The notes under the pieces are model-generated. The model was not told the DNA's origin, did no database searches, and worked only from the letters and a program-made list of their open reading frames with translations. Source: Rhodobiaceae bacterium (lineage in GTDB: Bacteria; Pseudomonadota; Alphaproteobacteria; Parvibaculales; Parvibaculaceae). From it: a DNA stretch of 64,000 nt. The stretch lies in contig CP030277.1 in NCBI GenBank assembly GCA_003330885.1, positions 434,001-498,000 on the forward strand. Reading direction: 5' to 3'. The number at the start of each line of letters is the position of its first letter. Position 1 is the stretch's first letter. A program made the translations under genes and the position numbers. This document shows positions 19,053 through 63,720 of this stretch, in pieces.

Positions 19053-19108
19053 AGGCTTTCTCTCATTTGCATTTCGCGCAGATAGCTTACGCCTGCCCTC
19101 CAAAAATA

Positions 19109-48235: not shown

Positions 48236-48754
48236 ATGACTGATTGTCCGCAGCCCGCGACGGAAGAACCCAAACCCGTTGACTGGGCGCGCATAGAACA
48301 GGTCTATCAGACGGAAGAGAAACTTGCGAATATCGCAAAAGAATATGGCCTCACAGTTCAGAAGATTGTGGCGCATGCGCAGCGCGAGGGCTGGCGGCTG
48401 CGATATGACAAGCAACGAGCGGGCAAACAGAACCGGTCGCCAGGGAGCACTGATCCGGCGACCTTGCGCAAACGTCTGACGGCACTCGTTGAAAGACAGA
48501 TAGCTGAGATCGAACAGCGCCTCGCCGAACCGGCGGAAAGTAGGGACCATGAAAGAGACGCGAGAACACTGTCGAACCTGACCCGAACATTAGACAAGCT
48601 GATCGAGTTGAAAAGAGCCGCTGCTGTTGAGCAGGCGGAAGCCAAACGACTGAGAGAAGAAGTAAGCGGCAATGACGGTGCCCAGACCGACGACGTGCTC
48701 AGACAAGACCTGGCGCGCCGCCTGGCTCGCATCGCAGCCGCAGGCACGGGTTGA
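48236..48754 (+). CDS. GTA small terminase subunit (TerS-like)
   Basis: The product is about 172 residues from ATG 48236; the frame opens at a TTG 18 codons earlier with no ribosome site. The N-terminal helix-turn-helix reads IEQVYQTEEKLANIAKEYGLTVQKIVAHAQREGW, followed by a long helical region. It corresponds to gene 1 of the RcGTA cluster and would recruit packaged DNA to the large terminase. It overlaps the TerL start by 83 bases. Confidence 0.75.
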   Translation: MTDCPQPATEEPKPVDWARIEQVYQTEEKLANIAKEYGLTVQKIVAHAQREGWRLRYDKQRAGKQNRSPGSTDPATLRKRLTALVERQIAEIEQRLAEPAESRDHERDARTLSNLTRTLDKLIELKRAAAVEQAEAKRLREEVSGNDGAQTDDVLRQDLARRLARIAAAGTG

Positions 48755-49991
48755 GGCCTTCCTGGCTGAATTGAGCCACCCGGAGCTCAGCTTTCTGACG
48801 CATGATTGGCGCTTCTGGGCGCGGGACAGTCAATGGCCTCCCGCGGGTAATTGGACAACCTGGTTGATCCTGGGCGGGCGTGGCGCGGGCAAGACCCGGG
48901 CGGGCGCTGAGTGGATTGCAGAGGAGGTGAGAGCAGCACGTGCTGGTCGTATTGCCCTTGTGGGTGAGAGTTATGCAGACGCGCGCGAAGTCATGGTGGA
49001 AGGCACATCAGGCTTGCGCGCGCTGGGGCCAGATCATGCAAAGCCACGCTATGAAGCAACGCGCCGCCGTTTGCTGTGGCCGAATGGCGCAGTGGCAAGC
49101 TTGCATTCAGCGAGTGATCCCGAAGGGTTGCGGGGTCCACAATTTGACGCCGCCTGGAGCGATGAGGCTGCAAAATGGCCGGATGCGGAAGCGGCCTGGT
49201 CCATGCTTCAATTTGGTTTGCGTTTGGGTGACCACCCCCGCCAGGTGGTGACATCAACGCCCCGTGCCGTGCCTTTGATCAGAAATCTGTTGACCGATGA
49301 CAGGGTCGCTGTGACACGGGCGACCACCTACGACAATCGCGCGAACCTGGCCGATGCGTTTTTCTCGACGGTGATCAAAACCTATGAGGGGACCCGGCTT
49401 GGTCGCCAGGAATTAAACGGTGAGCTTCTCGAAGATGATCCAGATGCCTTGTGGACGCGCACACTTATTGAGCGCTGTCGTAGAACGTCTACGCCCGATT
49501 TTAATCGGGTGGTGATCGGTGTCGACCCACCGGCAAGTTCAGGCGCTGGCGCGGATGAATGCGGGATCGTTGTGGCGGGGATCGGCAGCGATGATCGGTT
49601 TTATGTATTGGCGGATCGCTCACGCGCGCGCGCCAAACCGGCCGCCTGGGCAAAGGCCGTCGCTGAAGCCTATAAAAATTTCGATGCAGACCGCGTGATC
49701 GCTGAAGTAAATCAGGGCGGCGAGATGGTCGAAAGCGTGCTTCACCACGTGGCACCAACATTGCCGGTGCGCCAGGTCCGCGCAACCCGGGGCAAGAAGG
49801 TCCGCGCTGAACCGGTTGCCGCACTTTATGAACAGGGCAGGGTATCGCATCTCGCGCCCTTGCCGGAGCTTGAAGACCAAATGTGCAACTTCTCAGGTCG
49901 CGGCAAAAGTCCCGACCGATTAGACGCACTTGTCTGGGCCATAACCGATCTCATGCGAACCGCGGGCGACCCCGCGATCCGACGCTTGTAA
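48672..49991 (+). CDS. GTA large terminase (TerL)
   Basis: The product is 439 residues. The ATPase has Walker A GGRGAGKT (about 68-75) and an acidic Walker B (SDEAAK, Asp164-Glu165). The nuclease domain has GVDPPASSG and a C-terminal SPDRLDALVWAITDL with the conserved Asp. It drives DNA packaging; in GTAs packaging is headful and random. The start overlaps terS; no alternative internal start is convincing. Confidence 0.92.
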   Translation: MTVPRPTTCSDKTWRAAWLASQPQARVEAFLAELSHPELSFLTHDWRFWARDSQWPPAGNWTTWLILGGRGAGKTRAGAEWIAEEVRAARAGRIALVGESYADAREVMVEGTSGLRALGPDHAKPRYEATRRRLLWPNGAVASLHSASDPEGLRGPQFDAAWSDEAAKWPDAEAAWSMLQFGLRLGDHPRQVVTSTPRAVPLIRNLLTDDRVAVTRATTYDNRANLADAFFSTVIKTYEGTRLGRQELNGELLEDDPDALWTRTLIERCRRTSTPDFNRVVIGVDPPASSGAGADECGIVVAGIGSDDRFYVLADRSRARAKPAAWAKAVAEAYKNFDADRVIAEVNQGGEMVESVLHHVAPTLPVRQVRATRGKKVRAEPVAALYEQGRVSHLAPLPELEDQMCNFSGRGKSPDRLDALVWAITDLMRTAGDPAIRRL

Positions 49992-49998
49992 GGAAACA

Positions 49999-51204
49999 AT
50001 GATGAACGCAGTGACGCAGCAAAAGCCGGCGGGACTTTGGTCCAGGCTCTTCGCACGGCCATTCTTCGCGCCTCCATTGGCCACCAAGGCAAGTGCGACC
50101 GGAGCGCTTGTTGCGCTGAGCTCGCTGGGGCGCCCGGTCTGGACACCCCGCGACTATGATCGCCTGGCGCGCGAGGGCTATGAACAGAATGCGGTGGCCT
50201 TCAGATGTGTGCGCATGATTGCGGAGGCCGCCGCAAGCGTCCCTTGGATGCTTCACGAAGGCGATCAGACCCTAAGCGAGCATCCGCTCCTCACACTGCT
50301 CGTGCGACCCAATCCAGCTGAAAGCGGCACCGAGCTTTTGGAAGCCTGGTATGGCCATCTGCAGGTGGCAGGCAATGCCTATCTCGAAGCGGTGAGTGTT
50401 GGTGAGGACGTGCGCGAACTCTACGCACTCCGTCCGGACCGCATGAAAGTGGTGCCCGGCACGCGGGGCTGGCCGGAAGGCTATGAGTATGAGGTGAACG
50501 GGCGAACGGTTCTGTTTCGAGACGAACCCACCAAGCCCATCCTGCATATGAAGGCCTTCCACCCGACCGATGATCATTATGGCCTCTCACCGTTGGAAGC
50601 AGCGGCAAAGGCCGTCGACATTCACAATGCCGCAGGCGCCTGGAACAAATCTCTGCTTGATAATGCAGCGCGTCCCTCCGGCGCGCTTGTGTACAAGGGC
50701 GCAAGCGGTGACAGCACCCTCACCGATGATCAGTTCGACCGGCTGAAGCGGGAACTGGAAGATAATTATGCGGGTTCGGCCAATGCCGGTCGTCCACTCT
50801 TGTTGGAAGGCGGACTCGACTGGCAACAAATGGGCCTGGGCCCCCGCGATCTTGATTTCAACGAGGCAAAGAATGCCGCTGCGCGCGAAATCGCCCTGGC
50901 GTTTGGCGTGCCGCCCATGTTGCTGGGCATTCCCGGCGACAACACGTTTTCGAATTACAAGGAAGCCAATCTGGTTTTCTGGCGCCAGACCATCGTTCCT
51001 CTGGTGCGCAAGTCAGCGACGGCACTTACCCACTGGCTGGGGCCGCGTTTTGGACCGTCTCTGCATCTTGATATCGACCTTGAGGCGGTCCCGGCTCTTG
51101 CGGCAGAGCGCGAAAGCGTGTGGGCGCGAGTGAAAGACGCTGACTTCCTCAGTGATGAAGAAAAACGCCGGGCTGTTGGGTTGAGCGCAAGGGAGGCGGA
51201 TTGA
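49999..51204 (+). CDS. GTA portal protein (HK97-family)
   Basis: The product is 401 residues with AAGGA ahead; ATG 49999 or 50002. It is an HK97-type portal: WTPRDYDRLAREGYEQNAVAFRCVRMIAEAAASVPW, RPNPAESGTELLEAW, FGVPPMLLGIPGDNTFSNYKEANLVFW. Twelve copies form the ring through which DNA enters the head. The stop overlaps the next start by one base. Confidence 0.92.
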   Translation: MMNAVTQQKPAGLWSRLFARPFFAPPLATKASATGALVALSSLGRPVWTPRDYDRLAREGYEQNAVAFRCVRMIAEAAASVPWMLHEGDQTLSEHPLLTLLVRPNPAESGTELLEAWYGHLQVAGNAYLEAVSVGEDVRELYALRPDRMKVVPGTRGWPEGYEYEVNGRTVLFRDEPTKPILHMKAFHPTDDHYGLSPLEAAAKAVDIHNAAGAWNKSLLDNAARPSGALVYKGASGDSTLTDDQFDRLKRELEDNYAGSANAGRPLLLEGGLDWQQMGLGPRDLDFNEAKNAAAREIALAFGVPPMLLGIPGDNTFSNYKEANLVFWRQTIVPLVRKSATALTHWLGPRFGPSLHLDIDLEAVPALAAERESVWARVKDADFLSDEEKRRAVGLSAREAD

Positions 51205-51467
51205 TGGGGGAAGAGAAGGAGCCTGGGCGCTGGCACCTCGATAAACGCGTGCCCATTGCGCTCATCGTAGCAATCCTCATTCAAACTGCCGGCGCGCTGA
51301 CCTGGGCCGGGGCGGCCTCAGAACGCATCAATCATTTAGAACGTCAGGTGATCAGCGATGACGATATGGGTGAGCGCACCGCGCGCCTGGAAGTGCAGGC
51401 TGCCTATATGCGGGCAGCGCTCACACGTATTGAAGACAAGCTCGACCGAGTGATTGCCAAAGAGTGA
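51204..51467 (+). CDS. Small GTA-cluster membrane protein
   Basis: The product is about 87 residues from ATG 51204, sharing a base with the portal stop (TGATG). One membrane helix (VPIALIVAILIQTAGALTWAG) is followed by a coiled-coil-like tail (RINHLERQVISDDDMGERTARLEVQ, RIEDKLDRVIAKE). RcGTA clusters carry a small gene at this place whose role is unclear; a holin-like or scaffolding role is possible. Confidence 0.6.
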   Translation: MGEEKEPGRWHLDKRVPIALIVAILIQTAGALTWAGAASERINHLERQVISDDDMGERTARLEVQAAYMRAALTRIEDKLDRVIAKE

Positions 51468-51496
51468 CGAACTTCATCACCCATGATTTTCATCCA

Positions 51497-51531
51497 GCGT
51501 CTCCCCTGAGAATGGGCGGAGCGCTTTTTTT
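51497..51531 (+). terminator. Terminator-like hairpin between the portal/membrane gene and the protease
   Basis: GCG-CTCC (51497-51504, one bulge) pairs with GGAG-CGC (51518-51524), followed by TTTTTTT (51525-51531). It reads in the direction of the operon, so it may act as an attenuator that sets how much transcript continues into the capsid genes. Confidence 0.55.
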
Positions 51532-51545
51532 GTGCCGGGAGAAAC

Positions 51546-52238
51546 ATGAACAAACCAACGCGACAGGGAAAACCAGCAAGCGCCACTTGTGAAACCAAAC
51601 GAGCGGCCTTTCAGGTGGCAGAAGTGGATGCCGCCGGAGCGTTTGAAGGCTATGCGAGCCTCTTCGGAGCGGAAGATCTGGGTCACGACCTGGTCCAGCG
51701 CGGCGCGTTTCGCGCAAGCCTTGCCAAGCGCGGTGCTGACCAGGTCAGGATGCTCTTTCAGCATGACCCGGCAGACCCAATCGGCTCCTGGGACGAGATT
51801 CGCGAAGACACGAGAGGTCTCTATGTCCGTGGCCGCCTCACCCTGGAAGTGGCGCGGGCAAGAGACGTCCACGCGCTCATGAAAGCAGGTGCGTTGGACG
51901 GCCTCTCTATCGGCTTCCACACAGTGAAGGCGGTGCGCGATGCGGAGACCGGTCTGCGCCACTTGATGGAGCTGGACCTCTGGGAAATTTCAGTTGTGAC
52001 CTTTCCCATGCAGCCGGGCGCACGTGTGAGCACAGTGAAATCTGCATGGCTGCCAACAGAACGAGAACTTGAACGCTGGCTCTCGCGGGATGCGGGACTC
52101 AGCAGATCAGACGCCCGTGCCTTGATCGCGGGTGGCTACAAAGCGGTGAGGGCGCGGCGGGATGCTGGCTTCACTTCAACAGACTTGGGAGTCTTGGCGC
52201 GGACGATCCGCGCAGCTGGCGCTCATTTCATTCACTAA
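51546..52238 (+). CDS. GTA prohead protease (HK97-family)
   Basis: The product is 230 residues with GGGAGA ahead. The protease core is GYASLFGAEDLGHDLVQRGAFRASL, FQHDPADPIGSWDEI with the catalytic His, and LDGLSIGFHTVKAV with the catalytic Ser. The C-terminal 60 residues (SRSDARALIAGGYKAVRARRDAG) are an extension. It cleaves the capsid delta domain during head maturation. Confidence 0.88.
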   Translation: MNKPTRQGKPASATCETKRAAFQVAEVDAAGAFEGYASLFGAEDLGHDLVQRGAFRASLAKRGADQVRMLFQHDPADPIGSWDEIREDTRGLYVRGRLTLEVARARDVHALMKAGALDGLSIGFHTVKAVRDAETGLRHLMELDLWEISVVTFPMQPGARVSTVKSAWLPTERELERWLSRDAGLSRSDARALIAGGYKAVRARRDAGFTSTDLGVLARTIRAAGAHFIH

Positions 52239-52258
52239 ATCCATCTAAGGAGAAAGAT

Positions 52259-53575
52259 ATGCCTCTCACCAGAGAGACCCGTGTGGGCCGTATTGGCCAC
52301 ACGCTGGGTAGTCCTGCGCCAACCGCCGCGCCGGAAAAGAAAAGTGCGGACCTGGGCACACCAGCCATGCATGAAGTGCGCGACGCCATGGATGAATTCA
52401 TGACCCGCTTTGATGCATTCAAGCAAGCCAATGATGACCGCCTGTCCCAGGTGGAGCGAAAGCTTTCAGCGGATGTGGTGACCACAGAAAAGGTGGATCG
52501 TCTGAACGCCGCCCTGGATCTTCAGCAAAAGACGGTTGATGGTCTGGCCCTGTCCCTCACCCGACCTGAAATTGGCTCAGGTGCCTCGCTCTCGCCCGTT
52601 GCGCGGGAACACAAAGCCGCGTTTGAAACCTATGTGCGTCAGGGCGGTACTGGCCCGCTGCGCGGCCTGGAAGAAAAGGCCCTGTCTGTACAGTCAGACC
52701 CCGACGGCGGCTATCTGGTGCCAAGCGAAACGGAACAGATGATTGACCGGGTCGTCTCCGAAGCTTCTCCCATTCGCGCAATCGCAGGTGTGCGCCAGAT
52801 CGGTGCGGCATCCTACAAGAAGCCCTTTGCCACAAGCGGGGCAGCGACGGGCTGGGTCGGTGAGACAGAGCCACGGGCGGAGACCGGCACACCGAAAATC
52901 TCCGAGCTCGAATTTCCGGTGATGGAGCTCTATGCCATGCCGGCAGCCACATCGACCCTTCTAGATGACAGCGCGGTCAATATCGACCAGTGGATTGCCG
53001 AAGAAGTGCAAACCGCTTTCGCGGAACAGGAAGGTGCGGCCTTTGTATCGGGCGATGGTGTGAGAAAACCTCGTGGCTTCCTCTCCTACGACACCGTCGA
53101 TAATGAGAGCTGGGCCTGGGGCAAGGTGGGCTATGTCGCGACCGGCGCTTCCGGGGGCTTCCCGTCGACGAGCCCGTCCGATGTTTTGCTCGATCTGGTC
53201 TATTCGGTGAAGTCCGGCTATCGCGCCAATGCGCACTTTGTCATGAACCGGCAGACCCAGGCCCAGATCCGCAAATTCAAAGATGCCGACGGCAACTACC
53301 TCTGGCAGCCAAGTCTGACGGCAGGTCAAGCACCGCGGCTGATGAATGTGCCGATCGCCGAGGCTGAAGACATGCCGGACGTGGATACTGACAGTTTCGC
53401 GCTTGCCTATGGCGACTTCCGCCGTGGCTATCTCATTGTGGACCGGCTCGGCATTCGTGTCCTGCGCGATCCCTATACAGCAAAACCCTATGTCCTCTTC
53501 TACACAACCAAACGTGTGGGCGGCGGCATTCAGAATTTCGAAGCGATCAAGCTTCTGAAATTCGGCACAGCGTAA
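52259..53575 (+). CDS. GTA major capsid protein (HK97-fold)
   Basis: The product is 438 residues with AAGGAG ahead. Residues about 35-100 are coiled-coil, the scaffolding delta domain removed by the protease. The mature HK97 fold follows, with GGYLVPSETEQMIDRVVSEASPIRAIAGVRQIG, FPVMELYAMPAATSTLLDDS, FVSGDGVRKPRGFLS, LVYSVKSGYRANAHFVMNRQTQAQIRKFKDADGNYLWQPS and DFRRGYLIVDRLGIRVLRDPY. It builds the head. Confidence 0.92.
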   Translation: MPLTRETRVGRIGHTLGSPAPTAAPEKKSADLGTPAMHEVRDAMDEFMTRFDAFKQANDDRLSQVERKLSADVVTTEKVDRLNAALDLQQKTVDGLALSLTRPEIGSGASLSPVAREHKAAFETYVRQGGTGPLRGLEEKALSVQSDPDGGYLVPSETEQMIDRVVSEASPIRAIAGVRQIGAASYKKPFATSGAATGWVGETEPRAETGTPKISELEFPVMELYAMPAATSTLLDDSAVNIDQWIAEEVQTAFAEQEGAAFVSGDGVRKPRGFLSYDTVDNESWAWGKVGYVATGASGGFPSTSPSDVLLDLVYSVKSGYRANAHFVMNRQTQAQIRKFKDADGNYLWQPSLTAGQAPRLMNVPIAEAEDMPDVDTDSFALAYGDFRRGYLIVDRLGIRVLRDPYTAKPYVLFYTTKRVGGGIQNFEAIKLLKFGTA

Positions 53576-53587
53576 GGAGGTCTCACC

Positions 53588-54016
53588 ATGCGTGATCTAC
53601 ATTCAAATCTCGGAATTGTTCAAAGCCTGGACCCGGCTGTGACCACCTCGACGCGTGTTGGCGCCCCGGTTGATCGACAGGGCTATGAGAGCGTGGAGCA
53701 TATCGTGTCGCTGGGTATGAGCGGCGACACCCTATCGCCTTCGGTTTCTCTTGCTCTCAAGCTGGAAGAAAGTGAAGACGGCACCAATTGGTCGTCTGTT
53801 GTCAATGACAGCGACGTCCTGGGAGTGGCCGTTGATGGCAGCGGCACCTTTGCCCTGATCGATGATCCGTCCGAAGACGGGCAAGTGTTTGCCATTGGCT
53901 ATGTGGGCGATGCCCGCTATTGCAGGGTGCAGGTGGTGCTCACCGGGTCCCATACCAATGGCACACCGCTTGCCGCTCTGGCCTTGTTGGGCCATGGCAA
54001 TGTGAAGCCTGTCTAA
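53588..54016 (+). CDS. Extra capsid-adjacent protein in the GTA cluster (possible decoration protein)
   Basis: The product is 142 residues with AAGGAGG ahead. It is beta-rich with GYESVEHIVSLGMSGDTLSPSVSLALKLEESEDGTNWSSV, a pattern I know from small proteins after the capsid gene in some siphophages. RcGTA has no gene at this place between capsid and adaptor. It may be a head decoration or spike. An intercistronic hairpin follows it. Confidence 0.55.
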   Translation: MRDLHSNLGIVQSLDPAVTTSTRVGAPVDRQGYESVEHIVSLGMSGDTLSPSVSLALKLEESEDGTNWSSVVNDSDVLGVAVDGSGTFALIDDPSEDGQVFAIGYVGDARYCRVQVVLTGSHTNGTPLAALALLGHGNVKPV

Positions 54017-54023
54017 GCGGTAT

Positions 54024-54052
54024 GTCACCCTCGGGCATGACCTGAGGGTGAC
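54024..54052 (+). other. Intercistronic hairpin after the capsid block
   Basis: GTCACCCTC (54024-54032) and GAGGGTGAC (54044-54052) form a perfect 9-base stem with an 11-base loop. The following bases are pyrimidine-rich but hold no long T run. It may stabilise or partly terminate the capsid mRNA, lowering expression of the genes beyond it. Confidence 0.5.
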
Positions 54053-54086
54053 GCTCTTTCATTCTTTCTCCACGAACGGGAAACCC

Positions 54087-54638
54087 ATGCCCCACACATT
54101 GGTGACCGGTCCGGTCAGCGAGCCCGTTGATCTGGCCGATGCAAAACTGCACCTGCGCGTCGATGGAATCGACGAAGATGTTCTGATCGAAGGCTACATT
54201 TCAGCAGCAAGATTGAGCATTGAGGCCTATGCGGGTCTGGCGCTCCTGGACCAAAGCTGGGATCTGGTGCTCGACAGTTGGCCTGGGCCCGTCGTCGATT
54301 TCAATATGGGGCCGATCACCTCCATTCTCAGCGTGTCTGTCGATGGAAAGGCGCTGAGCCCCGACACCTACAATCTGGCGCCGGGCCTCAACGCTCGGTT
54401 GGTCCGCACAGACGGCGCCACCTGGCCCCGGCCCAAATCCCTTGCGGCGGGCATTGCGGTGCGCTTTGCGAGTGGCTTTGGCGCGAACGGAAGTGATGTG
54501 CCGCGGGACCTCCGCCATGCGCTCCTCATGATCGTGGCCCACTGGTATGAAAACCGCGAGCTAGCACCAGACACAAGCGATCAGCTGACCCCGCCGGTCC
54601 GCAGGTTGCTCGCGCCTTACAGAAAGCTCCGCCTGTGA
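54087..54638 (+). CDS. GTA head-tail adaptor (gp6-like)
   Basis: The product is about 183 residues from ATG 54087 with CGGGAA ahead; earlier starts lie in the hairpin region. The helical adaptor core shows LADAKLHLRVDGIDEDVLIEGYISAARLSIEAYAG and VPRDLRHALLMIVAHWYENRE. It sits under the portal as the first ring of the neck. Its stop overlaps the next gene by 4 bases. Confidence 0.8.
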   Translation: MPHTLVTGPVSEPVDLADAKLHLRVDGIDEDVLIEGYISAARLSIEAYAGLALLDQSWDLVLDSWPGPVVDFNMGPITSILSVSVDGKALSPDTYNLAPGLNARLVRTDGATWPRPKSLAAGIAVRFASGFGANGSDVPRDLRHALLMIVAHWYENRELAPDTSDQLTPPVRRLLAPYRKLRL

Positions 54639-54955
54639 TTGCGGATCTTCGACATCGCCTTGTTCTGGAAGAGCGCGTACCTCTCGCCGACGGAGGCGGC
54701 GGCGCCAGTGAAAGCTGGACCGAAGTGGCAACCCTATGGGCTGCCATGCATCAGAAGAGCGGGCGGGAACGCGAAGCAGCTGATCGTTTGGGGGCACAGG
54801 GCACCACAGACATCACCATTCGTTACCTTAGTGGCGTCACGACCGACATGCGGTTTCGGCTGGGAGCACGACATTTCAATATCCGCTCGGTTCTGGATGT
54901 CGACGGTCGCCGCCGCTGGCTCAGGTGCACATGCGCGGAAGGAGGGGCGTCATGA
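54635..54955 (+). CDS. GTA head-tail stopper (gp7-like)
   Basis: The product is 106 residues from GTG 54635, overlapping the adaptor stop. It has the head-closure fold: LRHRLVLEERVPLADGGGGASESWTEVATLWAAMHQKSGRE, TTDMRFRLGARHFNIRSVLDVDGRRRWLRC. It closes the head until the tail is joined. It overlaps the next gene by ATGA. Confidence 0.82.
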   Translation: MIADLRHRLVLEERVPLADGGGGASESWTEVATLWAAMHQKSGREREAADRLGAQGTTDITIRYLSGVTTDMRFRLGARHFNIRSVLDVDGRRRWLRCTCAEGGAS

Positions 54956-55362
54956 CCTTGGCGGCCAGCTGGGAACTGCAAAAAGCCATTCATGCAAGCC
55001 TTGTCGGTAACGCGTCCCTCTCTTCCCTGGTAAGCGGTCGCGTGTTCGACCGGCCACCCCAGGATGCGGCCTTTCCCTTCGTGACGCTCGGCGACACAGA
55101 GGTGGAGCCTGACGGCGCAGGAAGCGATGGCGCTGCCATTCACCGCCTTGCCCTTTCTGTCTGGTCGCGGGCACGCGGAAGGCGGGAAGTCAAAGAAATC
55201 ATGAGCGCCATCGATGAGGCACTGCAGGATGTGAGCTTGGCGCTGACCGGCCATGTGCTTGTTAACCTGCAATTGGAGCGCGCGAGTGTCTCTTATGCCA
55301 GCGACGCAGAGGCCCTGCGCGGGCGCCTTGTCTTTCGCGCCTATACAGAACCCACAAGCTGA
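54952..55362 (+). CDS. GTA tail terminator (DUF3168, gp8-like)
   Basis: The product is about 136 residues from ATG 54952, in an ATGA junction with the stopper. DUF3168 landmarks are ELQKAIHASLVGNASLSSLVSGRVFDRPPQDAAFPFVTLGD and SVWSRARGRREVKEIMSAIDEAL. It caps the tail tube and joins it to the neck. Confidence 0.82.
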   Translation: MTLAASWELQKAIHASLVGNASLSSLVSGRVFDRPPQDAAFPFVTLGDTEVEPDGAGSDGAAIHRLALSVWSRARGRREVKEIMSAIDEALQDVSLALTGHVLVNLQLERASVSYASDAEALRGRLVFRAYTEPTS

Positions 55363-55396
55363 ATTTTTCAGATAGACCAACAAAGGAGACGTGAGC

Positions 55397-55810
55397 ATGA
55401 CCGCTCAACGTGGCAAAGACCTGCTGCTCAAAATCGACAGCGACGGTCTGGGGACCTTCACGACCATGGCGGGGCTTCGTGCCCGCGCACTTTCATTCAA
55501 CGCGCGCACGGTAGATATAACCCATGCGGAGTCGGCAGGGGCCTGGCGGGAATTGCTCGCAGGCGCTGGCGTGAAGACAGCGAGTCTTAGTGGCAGCGGT
55601 ATCTTCAAGGACGAAGCCTCCGACGCCCTCGTCAGAGGCTATTTTTTCGACGGTACCATTCGTGACTGGCAGGTCATCATTCCAAATTTCGGGGCAGTCG
55701 AGGGGGCCTTTCAAATCACCTCGCTCGAATATGCAGGCACTCACGAAGATGAGCTCCGCTTTGATCTCGCCCTTGAGTCTGCAGGGCAACTTCTTTTCAC
55801 GAGTGCCTGA
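55397..55810 (+). CDS. GTA major tail tube protein (gp9-like)
   Basis: The product is about 137 residues from ATG 55397, with AGGAG 8 bases ahead. It is a TP901-type tail-tube fold: TAQRGKDLLLKIDSDGLGTFTTMAGLRARALSFNARTVDITHAES, GSGIFKDEASDALVRGYFFDGTIRDWQVIIPNFG. It polymerises into the tail tube. Its stop is one base before the next start. Confidence 0.88.
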   Translation: MTAQRGKDLLLKIDSDGLGTFTTMAGLRARALSFNARTVDITHAESAGAWRELLAGAGVKTASLSGSGIFKDEASDALVRGYFFDGTIRDWQVIIPNFGAVEGAFQITSLEYAGTHEDELRFDLALESAGQLLFTSA

Positions 55811-55811
55811 C

Positions 55812-56213
55812 ATGGTGAACCGACATCGCGGCGAAGTGGAGCTCAAAGCAGATGGTCAGAGCTATACGCTCTGCCTCACACTTGGCGCGCTCGCCCACCT
55901 GGAAGCAGCCTATGGCGGCGAGGACATTCTGACACTTGCCGACCGCTTCTCCCAGGGCCAGCTGACGAGCAGAGACGCCGTGAACCTGTTGGAGGCGGGA
56001 TTGAAAGGCGGCGGGCACGAGAGCGCAGCGCTCGATCTCGAGAACCTGAGCTTCGAAGGCGGCGTGGCAGGGCTCATCCGAACATTGGCCGTTCTGCTGC
56101 GGGTAACCTTTGGAGGGGCCAGCGCTGAGAGCATCGAAAGCACAGAGGCGGAACTCAACCAAGCAGAGGAGGGCGATGAGCATTTGCCCCCTTTCCCTGG
56201 AAACCCCTCTTGA
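55812..56213 (+). CDS. GTA tail assembly chaperone (gp10-like)
   Basis: The product is about 133 residues from ATG 55812; a longer frame would overlap the tube gene. It contains the GTA family signature VNRHRGEVELKADGQSYTLCLTLGALAHLEAAYGGEDILTLADRFSQGQ. It is thought to bind the tape measure during tail assembly. It overlaps the small next gene by 4 bases (TTGA). Confidence 0.8.
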   Translation: MVNRHRGEVELKADGQSYTLCLTLGALAHLEAAYGGEDILTLADRFSQGQLTSRDAVNLLEAGLKGGGHESAALDLENLSFEGGVAGLIRTLAVLLRVTFGGASAESIESTEAELNQAEEGDEHLPPFPGNPS

Positions 56214-56398
56214 GCTTTGCCTGCGGTGTGCTGCACTGGACACCGAAAGACTTCTGGTCGGCAAGCGTGCGCGAAATAGAGGGCGCCGCTCTGGCATTTG
56301 TCGCCAATGACAGCGCCGCAATGCCAATGGGTGGCCTTAACTGGCTGATGACCCGCTTTCCCGACGAACAGACAGGAACAAAAACCGATGGAGTTTGA
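56210..56398 (+). CDS. GTA small tail protein (DUF2376-type, gp10.1-like)
   Basis: The product is 62 residues from TTG 56210, overlapping the stop of the chaperone gene. It matches the short family with MSFACGVLHWTPKDFWSASVREIEGA. In RcGTA the corresponding small gene lies in the same place. It is possibly a second chaperone component; the small size makes functional reading uncertain. It overlaps the tape measure start by 11 bases. Confidence 0.65.
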   Translation: MSFACGVLHWTPKDFWSASVREIEGAALAFVANDSAAMPMGGLNWLMTRFPDEQTGTKTDGV

Positions 56399-57059: not shown

Positions 57060-57074
57060 ATTGGGAGGGCTCTA

Positions 57075-57713
57075 ATGGCGTTCCATGAAGTTCGATTTCC
57101 GCTGGAGGTTGGTTTTGGCTCTTCTGGCGGACCGGAGCGGCGCACTGAAATCGTGACGCTGGGTTCCGGTCACGAGGAGCGCAACTCGCCCTGGGCCGAC
57201 AGCCGCAGACGCTATGACGCAGGTTATGGCATTCGGTCCATGAAGGACCTGCACACAGTGATCGGCTTTTTTGAAGCCCGCCACGGACGATTGCATGGGT
57301 TTCGCTGGAAGGACCGCGCGGATCATGCGTCCGGAGATTATGGTGTTCCGGTGACATCCACCGATGAGCTCCTTGGAACCGGTGACGGCGGCACGGCGAC
57401 CTTCAATTTGATCAAACACTACAGCTCCGGTGGCGCGACCTATTCGCGACCCATTACAAAGCCTGTGGAAAGCACCGTACGGGTTGCGGTCAATGGTGTG
57501 GAACAGGTAATCGCATCGGATTTTGTCGTCGACCTGACCAAGGGCCTTGTCACCTTCTTGGCCGGGCACGAACCAGCGCCCGGTCTCAGCGTGACGGCGG
57601 GGTTTGAATTCGATGTGCCTGTGCGTTTCGACACAGATTTTCTCGACATTTCGCTCACTGGCTTTGATGCGGGCGACATCCCATCCATTCCTCTGGTTGA
57701 AATCCGCATCTAG
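57075..57713 (+). CDS. GTA distal tail protein (DUF2460, gp12-like)
   Basis: The product is 212 residues. DUF2460 landmarks are FHEVRFPLEVGFGSSGGPERRTEIVTLGSGHEERNSPWADSRRRYDAGYGIRSMKDLHTVIGFFEARHGRLHGFRWKD and VRFDTDFLDISLTGFDAGDIPSIPLVEIR. It forms the distal tail ring that joins the tube to the hub. Confidence 0.88.
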   Translation: MAFHEVRFPLEVGFGSSGGPERRTEIVTLGSGHEERNSPWADSRRRYDAGYGIRSMKDLHTVIGFFEARHGRLHGFRWKDRADHASGDYGVPVTSTDELLGTGDGGTATFNLIKHYSSGGATYSRPITKPVESTVRVAVNGVEQVIASDFVVDLTKGLVTFLAGHEPAPGLSVTAGFEFDVPVRFDTDFLDISLTGFDAGDIPSIPLVEIRI

Positions 57714-57733
57714 CGCCTGCAGGACCTGAACAG

Positions 57734-58621
57734 ATGAAATCACTTTCGCCCGATTTGCAGGCACACCTGGACAGCGGGACAACAACTCTGTGCCAATGTT
57801 GGAAACTGATACGACGCGACGGCGCCACAATGGGCTTCACGGACCATGACCGGGCGCTAAGCTTCAACGGCACGCTGTTTGAAGCTGCGGCGGGGTTTAC
57901 AGCAAGTGCTGTCTCCTCAACCAGTGGACTGGCCGTGGACAATCTGGATGTTTTGGGAGCGCTCTCCTCGGATCATCTGGAAGACGGGGATCTTGCCGCC
58001 GGTCTCTATGACGACGCAGAGATCGAAATCTGGCGGGTGAATTGGCAGGCGACCGATCAGCGGGTTTTGATGCGCAAGGGTAATCTTGGCGAAATCAGCC
58101 GGGGACCCACAGGGTTTACGGCTGAGGTTCGTGGTCTTTCACACCGGTTAAACCAGCCGACAGGCCGCCTCTTTCAATATGCCTGCGATGCGGATCTGGG
58201 CGATGCCCGCTGCGGCGTGTCTCTGACGGGCAGCGCTTTCACAGGCACCGGCTCGGTTATTGGTGTCACAGATAATCGAGAGATGATTGTCACAGGCCTC
58301 GATGCCTACGCGGACGCCTGGTTTGCGCGCGGATTGCTGACCTTCACCTCCGGCGTCAATCAGGATGAAGTATTGGAAGTCAAACGCCATTCAAAACGCG
58401 CCGGCGCCGTCGTCCTGGAGGTCTGGCATGCGCCTGCACAGGCGATTGAAGAAGGCGTGACCTTGAGCGTGGCTGCGGGCTGCGACAAGCAATTCGAAAC
58501 CTGTCGTGCGAAATTTGCCAACGCTGCAAGCTTTCGCGGCTTCCCACACATCCCTGGAAATGATTTCGCCCTTTCTTATCCGCTACGTGGCAGCAACAAT
58601 GATGGGAGCAGTCAGGTATGA
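57734..58621 (+). CDS. GTA tail hub protein (DUF2163, gp13-like) with Cys cluster
   Basis: The product is 295 residues. DUF2163 landmarks are HLDSGTTTLCQCWKLIRRDGATMGFTDHDRALSFNGTLFEA and the late SFRGFPHIPGNDF. Four cysteines are in two pairs: FQYACDADLGDARCGVSL and VAAGCDKQFETCRAKF. In the RcGTA structure the hub carries an iron-sulfur cluster on such cysteines, so the same is likely here. It overlaps the peptidase gene by 4 bases. Confidence 0.88.
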   Translation: MKSLSPDLQAHLDSGTTTLCQCWKLIRRDGATMGFTDHDRALSFNGTLFEAAAGFTASAVSSTSGLAVDNLDVLGALSSDHLEDGDLAAGLYDDAEIEIWRVNWQATDQRVLMRKGNLGEISRGPTGFTAEVRGLSHRLNQPTGRLFQYACDADLGDARCGVSLTGSAFTGTGSVIGVTDNREMIVTGLDAYADAWFARGLLTFTSGVNQDEVLEVKRHSKRAGAVVLEVWHAPAQAIEEGVTLSVAAGCDKQFETCRAKFANAASFRGFPHIPGNDFALSYPLRGSNNDGSSQV

Positions 58622-59076
58622 CGCATGAGACAAGCCCGAACCAGATTGTCGACAGCGCCCGACGCTGGATAGGCACGCCCTATCGCCATCAAGCCAGCAA
58701 ATGCGGCGTGGGGACCGACTGTCTGGGGCTCATCAGAGGTGTCTACCGGGAACTTTATGCGCTGGAACCGGAAACACCACCCCCATACAGTGCCGATTGG
58801 GCGGAGGTGCCTGATCTGAACGACGCTCGAGTTGAGACCATGGCCGAAGCTGCCCGCCGTCACCTCATTGAGCTAGATGTGGCGGACACAAGGCCGGGCG
58901 ATGTTCTTCTGTTCCGCATGACACGGGGCGCGGTTGCGAAGCACGCCGCGATTGAAAGCTTTGAGGGTCGGATGATCCATGCCTGCTCCGGTCGCGCTGT
59001 GGCGGAAGTTCATATGGGCGCCTGGTGGCCACGCCACCTTGCTTTTGCCTTTCGATTTCCGGGAGAATTGACCTAG
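58618..59076 (+). CDS. GTA NlpC/P60 cell-wall peptidase (gp14-like)
   Basis: The product is 152 residues in an ATGA overlap with the hub gene. The NlpC/P60 catalytic Cys is in KCGVGTDCLGLIRGVYRELY and the His in RGAVAKHAAIESFEGRMIHA, with RPGDVLLFRM between. It cuts peptidoglycan during DNA delivery into the recipient cell. Confidence 0.88.
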   Translation: MTHETSPNQIVDSARRWIGTPYRHQASKCGVGTDCLGLIRGVYRELYALEPETPPPYSADWAEVPDLNDARVETMAEAARRHLIELDVADTRPGDVLLFRMTRGAVAKHAAIESFEGRMIHACSGRAVAEVHMGAWWPRHLAFAFRFPGELT

Positions 59077-62000
59077 TGGCTTCCGTTCTTTTAAGCGCGG
59101 CAGGGTCTGCTGTCGGCTCCGCTGCTCTGCCCGCCGGGGTGAATTTCCTTGGCGCCAATATTTCCGGCGCCGCCATTGGCAATGCGGTTGGATCAATTGC
59201 GGGTTCCCTCATTGATGATCAACTGTTTGGCACATCTGTCACCCGAGACGGTCCAAGACTGTCTGACCTTGATGTACAGGCGTCTACCGAAGGTGCGGCG
59301 ATCCCTCGGATCTATGGCCGTGTTCGTTTGGCTGGACAGGTCATTTGGTCAACAAAATTCAAGGAGACGGCCACAACAAGCTCCAGTGGTGGTGGTAAGG
59401 GGAGTGGCGGCGGCAGTTCTGCGGAAACGACAAGCTACGCCTACTCTGTCTCTTGCGCGATTGCCCTGTGCGAAGGGACCATCACCCGTATTGGCAGCGT
59501 TTGGGCAGACGGCAATCTGCTCGACCTGTCTGGCATTTCCTACCGAGCCTATCTGGGTTCTGAAACGCAGGTGCCCGACAGCACGATGGAAGCGGTTGAG
59601 GGGGCGGGCAATGTGCCGGCCTATAAGGGGCTCGCTTACATCGTCGTTGAAGATTTACAGCTCGCCGACTTTGGCAACCGCCTACCGCAGCTCTCTATCG
59701 AAGTGTTTCGTGCGCTCAGCGATATTGAACAAGACATTAAAGCCGTCACCATCATTCCAGGTGCGACTGAGTTTGGTTATGACACGAGATCCTTCCGACG
59801 GATTTTTGCCAATGGTGTGAGCGACTCAGAAAACATGAACAACCGCCTCGGCGGAACTGATTGGCAGGTATCCTTAGATGACCTGCAGGCGACGTGTCCC
59901 AATCTGAACGCTGCCGCCTTGGTGGTGAGTTGGTATGGCAATGACCTTCGTTGTGGATCTTGTTCCTTGCGTCCAAAGGTCGACCGACAGGACAAAGTAA
60001 CCATCCCTGAAAACTGGCAGGTCGCGGGGTTGGGCCGCGGAATGGCGCAAGAGGTGAGCCGGGTCGATGGACGACCAGCCTTTGGCGGCACACCCTCTGA
60101 TGCATCTGCGAAGCGCGCAATTGAAGACCTCAAAAGTCGGGGCCTCTCTGTCTGCTTTTATCCTTTCATTCTGATGGATGTGCCGTCGGGCAATGGATTG
60201 CCCGATCCTTATGGCGGGAGTGAGCAGGCGGCGTATCCGTGGCGGGGGCGCATGTCGATTGACCCAGCGCCGGGATTTGTGGGTTCAACGGACAAGACGC
60301 TAGCGGTGGGGGGCGATGTCGCCGCCTTTTTCGGGACAGCATCGGCAAGTGACTTTTCTGTCTCCGCTCTGGGCGTCACCTATTCGGGTCCCGAAGAATG
60401 GTCCTACCGGCGCATGATCCTCCACAATGCGGCTTTGTGTGCCTGGGCGGGAGGTGTTGAGTCTTTTCTTATCGGTTCAGAAATGCGTGGTCTCACGCAA
60501 CTTCGTGATAGCGCCACAACATATCCCGCGGTCACGGAGCTGATTGCACTCGCCGCTGAAGTGCGCGCATTGCTCGGTCCGTCAACGAAAATTTCCTACG
60601 CCGCCGATTGGTCTGAGTATTTCGGCCATCAACCAGCCGATGGCAGTGGAGATGTCTTCTTCCATCTCGATCCACTTTGGTCTGATGCGAATATCGACTT
60701 TGTCGGCATCGACAATTACATGCCGCTTGCCGATTGGCGGGACGGTACGTCGCATCTGGATGCCGACGCAGGGGCGTCAAGCATCTATGACCTCAACTAT
60801 TTGAAGAGTAATGTAGCTGGTGGCGAGGGTTATGATTGGTACTATGCCAGCGCCGCTGATCGCGACAACCAGATCCGCACGCCCATCACCGACGGTGCGC
60901 ATGGGAAGCCCTGGGTTTTTCGCTACAAGGACCTGAAAAATTGGTGGAGCAACACCCACGTCAATCGGCCGGGTGGCGTGGAGAGTGGCGGTGCCACCAA
61001 TTGGGCGCCTATGGGAAAGCCCATACGATTTACCGAACTCGGATGCCCTGCCGTTGACAAGGGTGCGAACCAGCCCAATGTTTTCCTAGACCCCAAATCC
61101 TCTGAAAGCAATCTGCCTCATTTTTCAAACGGCATTCGCGACGATTATGGGCAACGCCGTTTTCTGGAAGCACATCTGAGCTATTGGCAGGATGCCACGG
61201 CCAACCCCCTATCGCCTCTCTATGGCGGACCCATGGTCGATGCAGATCATCTCTATATCTGGACCTGGGACGCACGACCTTATCCTTCATTTCCGTCGCT
61301 CACCTCTGTCTGGTCGGATGGGGACAATTGGAAGCTCGGACATTGGATCACCGGGCGCTTAGGCGCTGTGCCCCTGGCATTGCTTGTTCCTGAACTCGCT
61401 AAAGCGGGCGGCGATATACCAATTGCCGCTGGAGGTCTGACCGGTACCGTCGAAGGCTTCGTGCTTGATCGCATCTTGTCGCCGCGTCAGGCGATTGAGC
61501 CTCTTATGCTCGCCCACTTCTTTGACGCAGTGGAAAGCGAAGGTGTCATTCGCTTCCAGCATATGGGGAAGACACCTTCTCTTACGGTGACGCCGCAGGA
61601 CCTCGCGGTGGAGGAAAGATCCGCGCGAGCCAGCTTCACGCTCACCCGCGGTCAGGAAACTGAATTGCCCTTCGCCGCGAAACTCACCTACCTGGATGCG
61701 CAGTCGGACTATCGGCAGGCTGCGGTGGAAGCCCGTCGTGCAACAGTTTCGTCTCAACGCGTGTCGACTGCAGCCTTGCCCATGGTTTTGGCTCAAGCGG
61801 ATGCTCAGCGCATTGCCGAGATTTGGCTGCAGAACACTTGGGTGAAACGGGAGCGCGCGTCGCTGGCATTGCCACCAAGTCGGCTGGCGGCTGACCCAGG
61901 TGACGTGGTGACCCTCGAACTTGAGGACCGTGAGGTGGACTATCATCTCACTACCCTCTCTGACGAGGGAACAATTGAGGTGGAAGCTGTGAAGACCGAT

Positions 62001-63008
62001 GCGCAGGTGTTTGGCCTTCTTGCCGCGCCCGAGCACACACGGCCTGCAGACCCATTGCCGAGTTTTGGTCCGCCGGATGTGGCATTCCTCGACTTGCCTT
62101 TGCTGAACGGAGAACAAACACCTCATGCGCCTTTCATTGCTGCGACAGCAGTACCCTGGCCGGGCAGTATCGCACTCTATCGAAGCGCAACAGGCTCCGG
62201 TTTTGCCCTCGACCGTGTGGTGGAGGTGCCCGCCACCATGGGCCGAACGCTGACGGACCTTGCAGCCGGTCCCGTGAGCCGATGGGATAGGGCAAACTCA
62301 CTACAGGTGCGCCTGACAAGTGGCGAATTGCAGAGTGTTTCGGACCAGGCCGTACTCAATGGGGCGAACTTTGCGGCCCTGGAATCCACACCGGGATCCT
62401 GGGAGGTGATCCAGTTTGCAGAAGCCGACCTTGTTGACGTGAACACTTATGTTCTGAGCGGCCTGCTGCGCGGGCAGGGCGGCACTGAACAGGCAATGCT
62501 AGGAACGCTTGGCACTGGCGCGCGCTTCGTGCTCTTAAACGATGCGGTACAGCAGATCGGCCTGTCATCAGGAGAGCGCGGTCTCGACATTCATTGGCGC
62601 TATGGCCCGGGCCGTTATGGCATTGATCATGAGACCAATGCGACCGAGCTACGGGCCTTTGATGGAGTTGGCCTGCGTCCACTCTCGCCTGTTCATGTGA
62701 TAGGGCGGCGCAACGAAGCGGGCGACATCAACCTTTCCTGGATACGGCGGACCCGTATAGATGGCGATAGCTGGGTTGGGCTTGACGTGCCACTGGGTGA
62801 AGAAATCCAAGCCTATGAGGTCGATGTTCTAGAGGGAGGGAGTGTGACACGCACACTTGCTGCTTCAACCATGTCGACCGTTTACACCAGCACCGATCAG
62901 ATCGCCGATTTCGGCAGCGCCGAATTTTCAACACTCGATCTTCGCATCAGTCAATTGAGCCAGGCCTTTGGTCGTGGCACCAGCAGAGAGGTTACGCTTC
63001 ATGTCTGA
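59076..63008 (+). CDS. GTA host-specificity megatron protein (gp15-like)
   Basis: The product is about 1310 residues from GTG 59076, which overlaps the last base of the peptidase stop (TAGTG); longer frames start inside that gene. An N-terminal Gly/Ala-rich hydrophobic region (SAAGSAVGSAALPAGVNFLGANISGAAIGNAVGSIAG) precedes a hub part. A TIM-barrel glycosidase-like domain at about 430-760 (AALCAWAGGVESFLIGSEMRGLTQLRD, VDFVGIDNYMPLADWRDG) follows, then tail-fibre-type domains. It attaches the particle to cells and may cleave cell-wall or surface sugars. Confidence 0.88.
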   Translation: MASVLLSAAGSAVGSAALPAGVNFLGANISGAAIGNAVGSIAGSLIDDQLFGTSVTRDGPRLSDLDVQASTEGAAIPRIYGRVRLAGQVIWSTKFKETATTSSSGGGKGSGGGSSAETTSYAYSVSCAIALCEGTITRIGSVWADGNLLDLSGISYRAYLGSETQVPDSTMEAVEGAGNVPAYKGLAYIVVEDLQLADFGNRLPQLSIEVFRALSDIEQDIKAVTIIPGATEFGYDTRSFRRIFANGVSDSENMNNRLGGTDWQVSLDDLQATCPNLNAAALVVSWYGNDLRCGSCSLRPKVDRQDKVTIPENWQVAGLGRGMAQEVSRVDGRPAFGGTPSDASAKRAIEDLKSRGLSVCFYPFILMDVPSGNGLPDPYGGSEQAAYPWRGRMSIDPAPGFVGSTDKTLAVGGDVAAFFGTASASDFSVSALGVTYSGPEEWSYRRMILHNAALCAWAGGVESFLIGSEMRGLTQLRDSATTYPAVTELIALAAEVRALLGPSTKISYAADWSEYFGHQPADGSGDVFFHLDPLWSDANIDFVGIDNYMPLADWRDGTSHLDADAGASSIYDLNYLKSNVAGGEGYDWYYASAADRDNQIRTPITDGAHGKPWVFRYKDLKNWWSNTHVNRPGGVESGGATNWAPMGKPIRFTELGCPAVDKGANQPNVFLDPKSSESNLPHFSNGIRDDYGQRRFLEAHLSYWQDATANPLSPLYGGPMVDADHLYIWTWDARPYPSFPSLTSVWSDGDNWKLGHWITGRLGAVPLALLVPELAKAGGDIPIAAGGLTGTVEGFVLDRILSPRQAIEPLMLAHFFDAVESEGVIRFQHMGKTPSLTVTPQDLAVEERSARASFTLTRGQETELPFAAKLTYLDAQSDYRQAAVEARRATVSSQRVSTAALPMVLAQADAQRIAEIWLQNTWVKRERASLALPPSRLAADPGDVVTLELEDREVDYHLTTLSDEGTIEVEAVKTDAQVFGLLAAPEHTRPADPLPSFGPPDVAFLDLPLLNGEQTPHAPFIAATAVPWPGSIALYRSATGSGFALDRVVEVPATMGRTLTDLAAGPVSRWDRANSLQVRLTSGELQSVSDQAVLNGANFAALESTPGSWEVIQFAEADLVDVNTYVLSGLLRGQGGTEQAMLGTLGTGARFVLLNDAVQQIGLSSGERGLDIHWRYGPGRYGIDHETNATELRAFDGVGLRPLSPVHVIGRRNEAGDINLSWIRRTRIDGDSWVGLDVPLGEEIQAYEVDVLEGGSVTRTLAASTMSTVYTSTDQIADFGSAEFSTLDLRISQLSQAFGRGTSREVTLHV

Positions 63009-63720
63009 CAGCACTCATCTTGTCCTTCCCTTCGTGGAGGCTGCCCAGGCACAAAAGCATGTGACCGTGAATGAGGCGCTGAGCCGATTGGACGCACTTG
63101 TGCATCTGGCGGTGGAAAGTGCGACTGTGGCCGTGCCGCCGGATTCTCCTACAGAGGGTGCGCGGTGGATTGTCGGCGCCGGCGCCTCAGGTGCGTGGGC
63201 AGGTGAAGACGGGAAGGTTGCCGCTTATATCGATGGGGCGTGGGTGTTTCTGACCCCCAATGCGGGCTGGCAGGCATGGGACGCGGCGACCCGAACCTGG
63301 TTGCTCCATGACGGGACGACCTGGTTCGCGGGACCTGCAGGCACAGTCGCAGCTCTCACACCCAACATGGCGGCCACCCGTATCGAGACGATAGAGACCG
63401 ATCACAGCATTTTGGCTGGTGCCTTCAACGACACGGCGCTCACCATCCCTGATCGCGCCATCGTCTTTGGGGTGACGGGGAGGGTGCTGACAGACATTAC
63501 AGGTCCTGCATCCTGGACCCTTGGGGTGAGCGCTGACCCAGGCCGATATGGCAACGCTATTGGCACCTCTGCAGGCAGTACCGTGAATGGCGTGAGTGGC
63601 GCTCCAACCGCCTATTACGGTGCGACACCCGTACGCGTCGCCGGGACCGGCGGCGATTTCACCGGCGGTTCGCTCCGCCTGGCGCTCCACTATCTGGCGC
63701 TGGAAATCCCGACTGCTTAA
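63001..63720 (+). CDS. GTA tail fibre protein (DUF2793, rcc00171-like)
   Basis: The product is about 239 residues from ATG 63001, overlapping the megatron stop by 8 bases. The DUF2793 signature is LVLPFVEAAQAQKHVTVNEALSRLDALVHLAVESATVAVPPDSPTEGARWIVGAGASGAWAG, then AYIDGAWVFLTPNAGWQAWDAATRTWLLHDGTTW. In Rhodobacter capsulatus the corresponding gene lies far from the main GTA cluster; here it is part of it. It probably binds cell-surface polysaccharide. Confidence 0.85.
   Translation: MSDSTHLVLPFVEAAQAQKHVTVNEALSRLDALVHLAVESATVAVPPDSPTEGARWIVGAGASGAWAGEDGKVAAYIDGAWVFLTPNAGWQAWDAATRTWLLHDGTTWFAGPAGTVAALTPNMAATRIETIETDHSILAGAFNDTALTIPDRAIVFGVTGRVLTDITGPASWTLGVSADPGRYGNAIGTSAGSTVNGVSGAPTAYYGATPVRVAGTGGDFTGGSLRLALHYLALEIPTA

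Follow-up and report, generated by a model that had tools for sequence, protein, structure and literature searches.

A probable host-maintained gene transfer agent of the RcGTA type on a Parvibaculaceae chromosome, with a putative capsid decoration gene and a linked control module

The subject of this report is a run of 19 genes at positions 48236-63720 of a 64,000-nucleotide stretch of the chromosome of Rhodobiaceae bacterium (hereafter the window; G000:C1:434001-498000 of a one-contig genome of 3,862,255 bases), which contains the head and tail genes of a gene transfer agent (GTA) resembling that of Rhodobacter capsulatus (RcGTA). In our judgement it is very probable that this cluster is an intact, vertically inherited and host-maintained RcGTA-type GTA of the Parvibaculaceae chromosome; its regulation, random packaging and transfer of DNA would be as expected by analogy with RcGTA and the GTA of Caulobacter. 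RcGTA-like clusters are common, and clusters from Parvibaculales have already been published (PMC6821227, PMC9662315). The additions described here are a probable capsid decoration gene, which we name gX (as with gY below, the name was coined in this analysis), and, linked to the cluster, a module of repressor and activators. These two features are relevant to the way in which a phage was reduced to a GTA, and gX may serve as a marker for telling losses from gains.

Gene order and relationship to RcGTA

All 19 open reading frames (ORFs) lie on the + strand, run from a start codon to a stop codon and are free of internal stops; coding sequence occupies 15,417 of the 15,485 bases, and nine of the 18 junctions overlap (eight by 4 to 83 bases, one by 1 base), the largest gap being 78 bases. 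Functions were assigned via Pfam, PHROGs and NCBIfam (Table 1). The Pfam matches read, in order, Terminase_6N/6C, Phage_portal, Peptidase_S78, Phage_capsid, Phage_connect_1, Phage_HCP, Tail_completion_gp17, Phage_tail_2, Phage_TAC_11 (GTA-gp10), Phage_TAC_6, DUF2460, Phage_phiJL001_Gp84_N with BR0599, NLPC_P60, GTA_TIM with Phage-tail_3 and Rcc01698_C, and DUF2793, with four of the 19 genes (g1, g3.5, gX and the tape measure gene) lacking a Pfam match over the cut-off. An ordered run of head and tail families such as this is far beyond chance. The labels g1 to g15 are the customary RcGTA gene names. The head-tail genes g1 to g15 stand in RcGTA order, and gX (53588-54016) and the DUF2793 gene (63001-63720) are not known as members of the RcGTA head-tail cluster. 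A preliminary description of the window had spoken of 19 consecutive unbroken genes in RcGTA order, of which the order, the frames and the overlaps stand, with these two genes falling outside the RcGTA set.

The closest solved structures point the same way. Compared with the PDB, the major capsid protein (MCP) has RcGTA Rcc01687 as its top relative (332 bits, E 4.7e-98), the next other chain being a 'Major head protein' (9gyi) at 166 bits, and the megatron protein matches the RcGTA chain 6tba_8A with 1173 bits over its full length (1-1308), ahead of a 'Megatron protein' (8gtc) at 857 bits. The tape measure matches NF058675, an NCBIfam model of the RcGTA-type tail tape measure, over 8-219 of 220 positions (E 2.3e-50), its score of 171 bits falling short of the model's cut-off, 220. 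Its shortness had been put forward in the preliminary description as a sign of a GTA, and the comparison bears this out: it has 223 amino acids (aa) here and 164-277 aa, counted stop to stop, across 67 named loci with a match, versus about 700 aa in two phages with the whole module, ctuI7215 (MW202777; L231) and Desulfofustis phage LS06-2018-MD02 (OP947159; L232), whose tape measure genes measure 2,100 and 2,097 nt.

A 65-row MCP tree, made by a quick method, places the cluster, as do the PDB comparisons of MCP and megatron, closer to GTAs than to phages. It was built from 11 of 20 stretches of the family, 28 of 80 named loci, 13 gX-bearing stretches of the class, locus L155, five prophage-like stretches, six phage-collection records and the window. 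The window row lies on a short branch (0.021) inside a 12-row Parvibaculaceae group (Shimodaira-Hasegawa-like approximate likelihood ratio test support 98), itself nested in a 48-row GTA group (98); the phage rows L231, L232, L246 and L247 fall outside, and 21 of the 62 inner branches are left open. The nearest named records by MCP are Parvibaculaceae, Rhodobiaceae and Alphaproteobacteria isolates and metagenome-assembled genomes (Mf 1.05b.01, FE80, OFTM199, NORP32 and SP61; 96 to 78% identical), followed by Parvibaculum (72-70% identical). According to PMC9662315, the family Rhodogtaviriformidae, to which RcGTA belongs, is currently limited to Rhodobacterales; with Rhodobiaceae, Parvibaculaceae and Parvibaculum records as its closest named kin, the window cluster lies outside that family as formally defined.

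The cluster has the same structural genes as RcGTA, arranged in the same order, and further shares with it the top solved relatives of MCP and megatron, the short tape measure and an activator with a DUF6456 domain. It differs in having gX between g5 and g6 and a DUF2793 gene within the cluster; moreover, the activator here consists of two proteins whose genes are linked to the cluster, and the genome has no match to the holin family PF11351. RcGTA is not known to have a gX-like decoration gene in its cluster. The GTA-Hunter survey (Kogay 2019) counted two RcGTA-like clusters among five Parvibaculales genomes; these and its Hyphomicrobiales clusters are RcGTA-like too, and the accessible part of that paper mentions neither gX nor a linked control module (PMC6821227). 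The genome of Ca. Phaeomarinobacter ectocarpi is described with no RcGTA-like cluster, some being mentioned for Parvibaculum lavamentivorans (PMC4110880). Full-text literature searches, judged by titles and abstract openings, brought up no description of a decoration gene in a GTA cluster, nor of a linked RogA-like/gafYZ module near one.

Table 1. Features of the GTA cluster and its control module (positions in the window)
Feature	Position	Strand	Basis
RogA-like XRE protein, longest ORF, TTG start (true start perhaps further in)	18480..19124	-	HTH_3 E 1.5e-11
TTTGC-N7-GCAAA palindrome, 5' end of rogA ORF, gafY side	19109..19125	.	sole other window copy
gafY, DnaA-domain-IV-like activator	19223..19657	+	PF08299 E 9.5e-17
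gafZ, DUF6456	19669..20550	+	PF20057 E 9e-51
TTTGC-N7-GCAAA palindrome ahead of g1, candidate operator for RogA	48050..48066	.	shared with rogA/gafY junction
CATCTCCAGAAAT, first copy, candidate activator element	48108..48120	+	13-base direct repeat
CATCTCCAGAAAT, second copy	48216..48228	+	7 bases before g1 start codon; 4/6 aligned genus sequences identical
g1, small terminase	48236..48754	+	phrog_1206 terminase small subunit E 5.9e-6
g2, large terminase	48672..49991	+	PF03237, PF17289
g3, portal	49999..51204	+	PF04860 E 1.9e-89
g3.5, small protein, TTG start	51201..51467	+	position; match in 20/20 family stretches
g4, prohead protease	51546..52238	+	PF04586, TIGR01543
g5, MCP	52259..53575	+	PF05065; RcGTA Rcc01687 E 4.7e-98
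gX, putative capsid decoration protein, 142 aa jellyroll	53588..54016	+	predicted fold; place behind MCP
g6, head-tail adaptor	54048..54638	+	PF05135, phrog_442, TIGR02215
g7, head completion/stopper	54635..54955	+	PF05521 E 1.2e-30
g8, tail terminator	54925..55362	+	PF11367, phrog_176
g9, tail tube	55397..55810	+	PF06199, TIGR02126
g10, tail assembly (GTA-gp10)	55812..56213	+	PF11836 E 6.2e-23, scanned as longer ORF 55590-56213
g10.1, tail assembly chaperone	56210..56398	+	PF09550
g11, short tape measure, 223 aa	56388..57059	+	NF058675 below cut-off; PHROG
g12, distal tail protein (Rcc01695 family)	57075..57713	+	PF09343, TIGR02217
g13, baseplate hub	57734..58621	+	PF09931, PF09356, TIGR02218
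g14, NlpC/P60 tail peptidase	58618..59076	+	PF00877, TIGR02219
g15, megatron	59076..63008	+	GTA_TIM, Rcc01698_C; RcGTA chain 6tba_8A
DUF2793 tail-fibre-like protein	63001..63720	+	PF10983 E 1.9e-33; tail-fibre PHROGs among matches
gY, SleB-fold protein, 157 aa	63782..64255 (past window end at 64000)	+	Hydrolase_2; Foldseek SleB

GTA or prophage

Could the cluster instead be a prophage (intact or defective) or a phage satellite with an RcGTA-like structural module? That two complete phages, ctuI7215 and LS06-2018-MD02, hold the module in the same order, including gX directly behind an MCP gene (53.0% and 51.5% identical MCPs) and a DUF2793 match behind the megatron gene, would agree with such an origin, as would the near-identical stretches filed in IMG/VR as 'viral' contigs. 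These phages differ, however, in that their tape measure genes are some 2,100 nt long and that a helicase and other DNA genes are annotated. In the chromosome studied here, seven integrase-family matches (five over the cut-off) were found, the nearest more than 470 kb from the cluster; no tRNA gene occurs in the window, in the 16 kb before it or in the 14 kb after it; and the longest att-like direct repeat across the cluster is 13 bp, not above chance (the maximum of 50 shuffles being 15). A flanking integrase with att sites, which according to the preliminary description would have spoken for a prophage, is thus missing. MCP and large terminase (TerL) are single-copy in the genome, none of the 19 genes is a replication or lysogeny gene, the MCP groups with chromosomal GTAs, and the cluster keeps the same place across the family and beyond. 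On the strength of integrase distance, lack of att repeat and tRNA, tape measure, synteny and tree we reject the prophage reading, to which we would give only a very small chance. The absence of integrase, repressor and replication genes that had been claimed at the outset holds within 48236-63720; the same window does carry a RogA-like XRE gene and the activator genes gafY and gafZ at 18480-20550.

The catalogues themselves merit a comment: public phage and virus collections contain GTA clusters labelled as viruses. Two records filed as bacteriophages, L233 (MW091529.1) and L245 (MW462191.1), have GTA-type clusters with short tape measures and group with Hyphomicrobiales GTAs in the MCP tree, and the genes on both flanks of L245 look chromosomal. 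IMG/VR includes 190 stretches of viral contigs with a gene for a relative of the window's own MCP (the best 80, L033-L112, were kept); because these relatives are up to 100% identical, cellular GTA clusters are probably catalogued there as viruses.

Conservation and selection

Among 37 genomes of the family, own included, 31 have an MCP match (in G036 a 76-residue fragment at a contig end) and 34 a TerL match, and no listed match contains a stop. Downstream, an SDR gene follows the cluster in all 16 family stretches that extend far enough, out of 20 fetched; L193, L198, L210 and L212 end short of that position. Upstream, PBP1 and YkgJ genes are found in 26 of the 55 named loci with 7.5 kb or more of sequence ahead of the MCP, Filomicrobium, Shinella and Rhizobium included. 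One chromosomal copy in a conserved place, inherited vertically, is what an RcGTA-type GTA would present. Omega, the ratio of nonsynonymous to synonymous divergence, was computed against five genus relatives and is given here, as a rough figure, for three: the 19 genes span values of 0.015 to 0.288, g3.5 having 0.015-0.036 and gX 0.057-0.113, and the sequences compared contain no internal stop. For PBP1 the short values (39-56 codons) were left unused, and the full-length value is 0.034. The cluster genes compared are under purifying selection, and the earlier suggestion that intactness reflects selection for function is upheld by these values, by the conserved place and by the lack of internal stops.

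Intactness and purifying selection reveal that the cluster is used and not what it is used for, and it is conceivable that a domesticated particle now serves another end, as a tail-based bacteriocin or as a shell that no longer transfers DNA; that no known lysis gene was found could be read in the same sense. Constraint on the head genes, however, is similar to that on the tail genes (omega 0.015-0.232 for terminase, portal, protease, capsid and gX, versus 0.027-0.288), which speaks against a tail weapon because such a weapon could do without these head genes. GafY and GafZ, together with a ComEC-type gene in the same genome, likewise stand against this account, which we regard as improbable. 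Least likely of all, and scarcely credible, is that the cluster is a relic, inactivated so recently that it still has an intact appearance: loss does occur in the family, in G008, as set out below, yet all 19 frames and the frames of rogA, gafY and gafZ are open in this genome, and its own MCP branch is short.

Several points weigh against our preferred reading of a working, host-maintained GTA. First, the cluster can be lost, because G008, a 99% complete genome, has no MCP or TerL match and has kept gafY and gafZ. Secondly, PF11351 (GTA_holin_3TM) has no match in the own genome, as compared with a match in eight of the 37 genomes searched, and PF05838 has none either in a search in which the positive controls were also silent; lysis genes of the R. 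capsulatus type, which the preliminary description had suggested looking for elsewhere in the genome, were not found in these searches. Thirdly, the identity of the RogA-like protein rests solely on its XRE domain and its place. Fourthly, side-chain carbon, which is expected to be lower in a GTA than in phage homologues and is lower in the own proteins than the phage mean for 10 of 11 genes, was compared with two phages only; g9 goes the opposite way, as does the family mean of g4. Finally, the omega values are rough because synonymous divergence (0.33 to 2.49 in the genus comparisons) is near saturation in several of them.

In G008 (L219) the RogA-like, GafY and GafZ matches are present and those to MCP and TerL absent, an instance of a regulator outliving its cluster.

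The linked control module

A search for a GafA-type regulator, which the preliminary description had proposed, led to a GafY/GafZ pair at 19223-20550. In PMC9765227 (Table 1 of that paper) gafA is listed with DUF6456, and this domain occurs once in the own genome, at 19669-20550 of the window (PF20057 E 4.6e-51), preceded by the PF08299 match of gafY; the pair is thus encoded in the genome of the cluster. The RogA-like gene is divergent from, and adjacent to, gafY-gafZ. GafY of Caulobacter is described as DnaA-domain-IV-like (PMC9632790), and RogA is described with an N-terminal helix-turn-helix (HTH) domain. In the window, the C-terminal half of the RogA-like protein has no Pfam match. The GTA of Caulobacter crescentus (CcGTA) shares the split GafY/GafZ activator and an HTH repressor, RogA, that acts on gafYZ (PMC9632790 and PMC11150451); what differs here is that the XRE gene stands right next to gafYZ, in divergent orientation, and that gafZ is 22-33 kb from the capsid gene.

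The arrangement is not peculiar to this genome. Of ten loci compared, the own locus among them, all have matches to GafY and GafZ, and nine to the RogA-like protein. Among 23 family genomes searched (G000-G022), 22 have gafZ, and in 16 gafZ and MCP are on one contig, in all 16 on the same strand with gafZ about 22-33 kb upstream. None of the 19 proteins scanned between or beside gafZ and PBP1 looks phage-like.

Two candidate regulatory elements precede g1. The repeat CATCTCCAGAAAT is confined to the region upstream of g1, where its two exact copies are the sole occurrences in the 3.86 Mb genome, and CATCTCCAGAA is conserved in five of six aligned genus sequences, SP61 having one change. The palindrome TTTGC-N7-GCAAA occurs twice in the window versus 0.14 expected, a count reached in one of 100 shuffles; on its own it is weak, because genome-wide it is found at eight places versus five for the reversed control. 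We treat repeat and palindrome as leads, because both were chosen after looking. Four regular expressions for CtrA sites, run over the + strand of the window, gave no match.

How might these parts work together? The RogA-like repressor would keep the gafYZ promoter closed, and, once it is lifted, GafY and GafZ would activate a promoter upstream of g1, with GafZ permitting RNA polymerase to read through over 15 kb. Small heads would then be built from the MCP (g5), probably decorated by gX, and joined to short tails set by the 223-aa tape measure; the small and large terminases (TerS/TerL) would package chromosomal DNA. The particle would attach by the megatron and DUF2793 fibre, the wall being opened by the g14 peptidase.

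The extra gene behind the capsid gene

Each of the 20 family stretches contains gX, and 21 aligned rows share 16 invariant columns. Its AlphaFold model is a jellyroll (predicted local distance difference test score, pLDDT, 88.8), which VIA-align superposes on phage capsid chains of BPP-1 (3j4u, Z 9.7, root-mean-square deviation 2.9, 114 residues aligned), Milano (8fwg, 8.9, 3.5, 111), 7-7-1 (9hz8, 8.4, 3.7, 115) and Carin1 (8cjz, 8.3, 2.8, 103), at an identity of just 10-19%. A profile search of the PDB returned a single, weak match (E 0.24), again to Carin1 8cjz, a 'Capsid Decoration Protein'. The fold alone is no proof of role, because YomS (10.7) and XepA (10.6) outscore the phage capsid chains and middling Z scores are common; the top Foldseek rows are jellyroll-like domains, for example of Eph receptors, the BPP-1 chain coming at rank 21. 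According to PMC7296036, the base of the RcGTA head spike is a jellyroll as well; it is not among the structure matches listed for gX by Foldseek and VIA-align. PMC10276861 describes a decoration protein in BPP-1 and presents the RcGTA-related phage R4C as lacking a decoration gene.

Place carries more weight than fold here, because the fold is common and gX lies directly behind an MCP match, no more than 130 bases away, in 21 of 21 cases: 18 stretches of the class (one each from 18 of the 23 gX-bearing genomes outside the family), L155 and the two phages. From this position and the modelled jellyroll we take gX to be probably a capsid decoration protein.

How widely is the gene distributed? 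A first hint of restriction came from 80 named loci, in which matches were confined to genus and Parvibaculum loci and to L155 (28%). The idea that gX is specific to Parvibaculaceae was dropped once a profile search across 289 genomes of the class had given 27 with the gene, of which 23 lie outside the family. Four of the 18 class stretches (L248, L253, L256 and L257) hold full RcGTA-type clusters; five others (L249, L258, L259, L261 and L262) have no g12-g15 match and are HK97-type prophage-like, no integrase search having been made there. Six phage records have a gX match, and those included in the MCP tree sit outside the GTA group. Among eight MCP-bearing class genomes outside the family, gX occurs in three (G039, G048 and G054, not G040, G041, G045, G047 or G055).

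On the MCP tree the history of gX needs at least three changes, in a count that left L246 uncoded despite its gX match and on rows that are biased in sampling, the class rows having been picked for having gX and GTAs lacking it being under-sampled. The simplest reading of these sequences would be that gX is ancestral, perhaps inherited from the phage ancestor, and was lost in a Hyphomicrobiales group and in the group surrounding Rhizomicrobium; a late gain from a phage is the competing account. Taken with the control module, we see an even chance that the GTA of Parvibaculaceae and scattered alphaproteobacteria keeps an ancestral phage decoration protein, lost in the sampled Hyphomicrobiales and Rhizomicrobium-surrounding groups, and a control module that still stands 22-33 kb from the capsid gene, much as in a prophage in which chromosomal DNA has taken the place of the central part. 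If so, this GTA would be less reduced in phage domestication than RcGTA.

The 3' end and lysis

The start of the DUF2793 gene and the end of the megatron gene have 8 bases in common, and gY comes next after the DUF2793 gene. The gY protein matches Hydrolase_2 under the cut-off (E 0.012; one family member reaches E 4.4e-7, over the cut-off), and its predicted model (mean pLDDT 75.5) has the SleB/CwlJ fold, the top three Foldseek rows being SleB (probability 1.00, E 2e-3 to 7e-3). At the position of the catalytic Glu, presumably the first Glu of GESRGE in 4f55, gY has Tyr, as judged from the 4f55 alignment (E 0.14) and the family alignment, and solely L206 has Glu there among 12 aligned gY members. 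Matches to gY occur in 13 of 20 family stretches; L198, L210 and L212 end too early, and L199, L200, L208 and L209 have none. The position of gY is occupied in the two phages, one gene behind the DUF2793 match, by an annotated N-acetylmuramidase or tail lysozyme, and gY is therefore plausibly a former endolysin. A working endolysin is uncertain, and was not adopted, the presumed catalytic Glu being missing. The Caulobacter GTA is reported to lack holin-endolysin release genes of the R. capsulatus type, and lysis in Caulobacter proceeds via LypABC (PMC13236601).

Some relatives depart from the window at these and other points. Two from the genus, L226 (G006) and L227 (G003), do have GTA_holin_3TM matches, unlike the window genome. 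In L193 (G001, the FE80 relative), at 16459-19222, about 2.8 kb separate the DUF2793 gene from gY, versus 61 bases in the window, which amounts to an insertion. The GTA-like cluster of L264 (G135) has its g8 match about 4 kb behind g7 and its g11 match before g9, as if it had been interrupted and rearranged.

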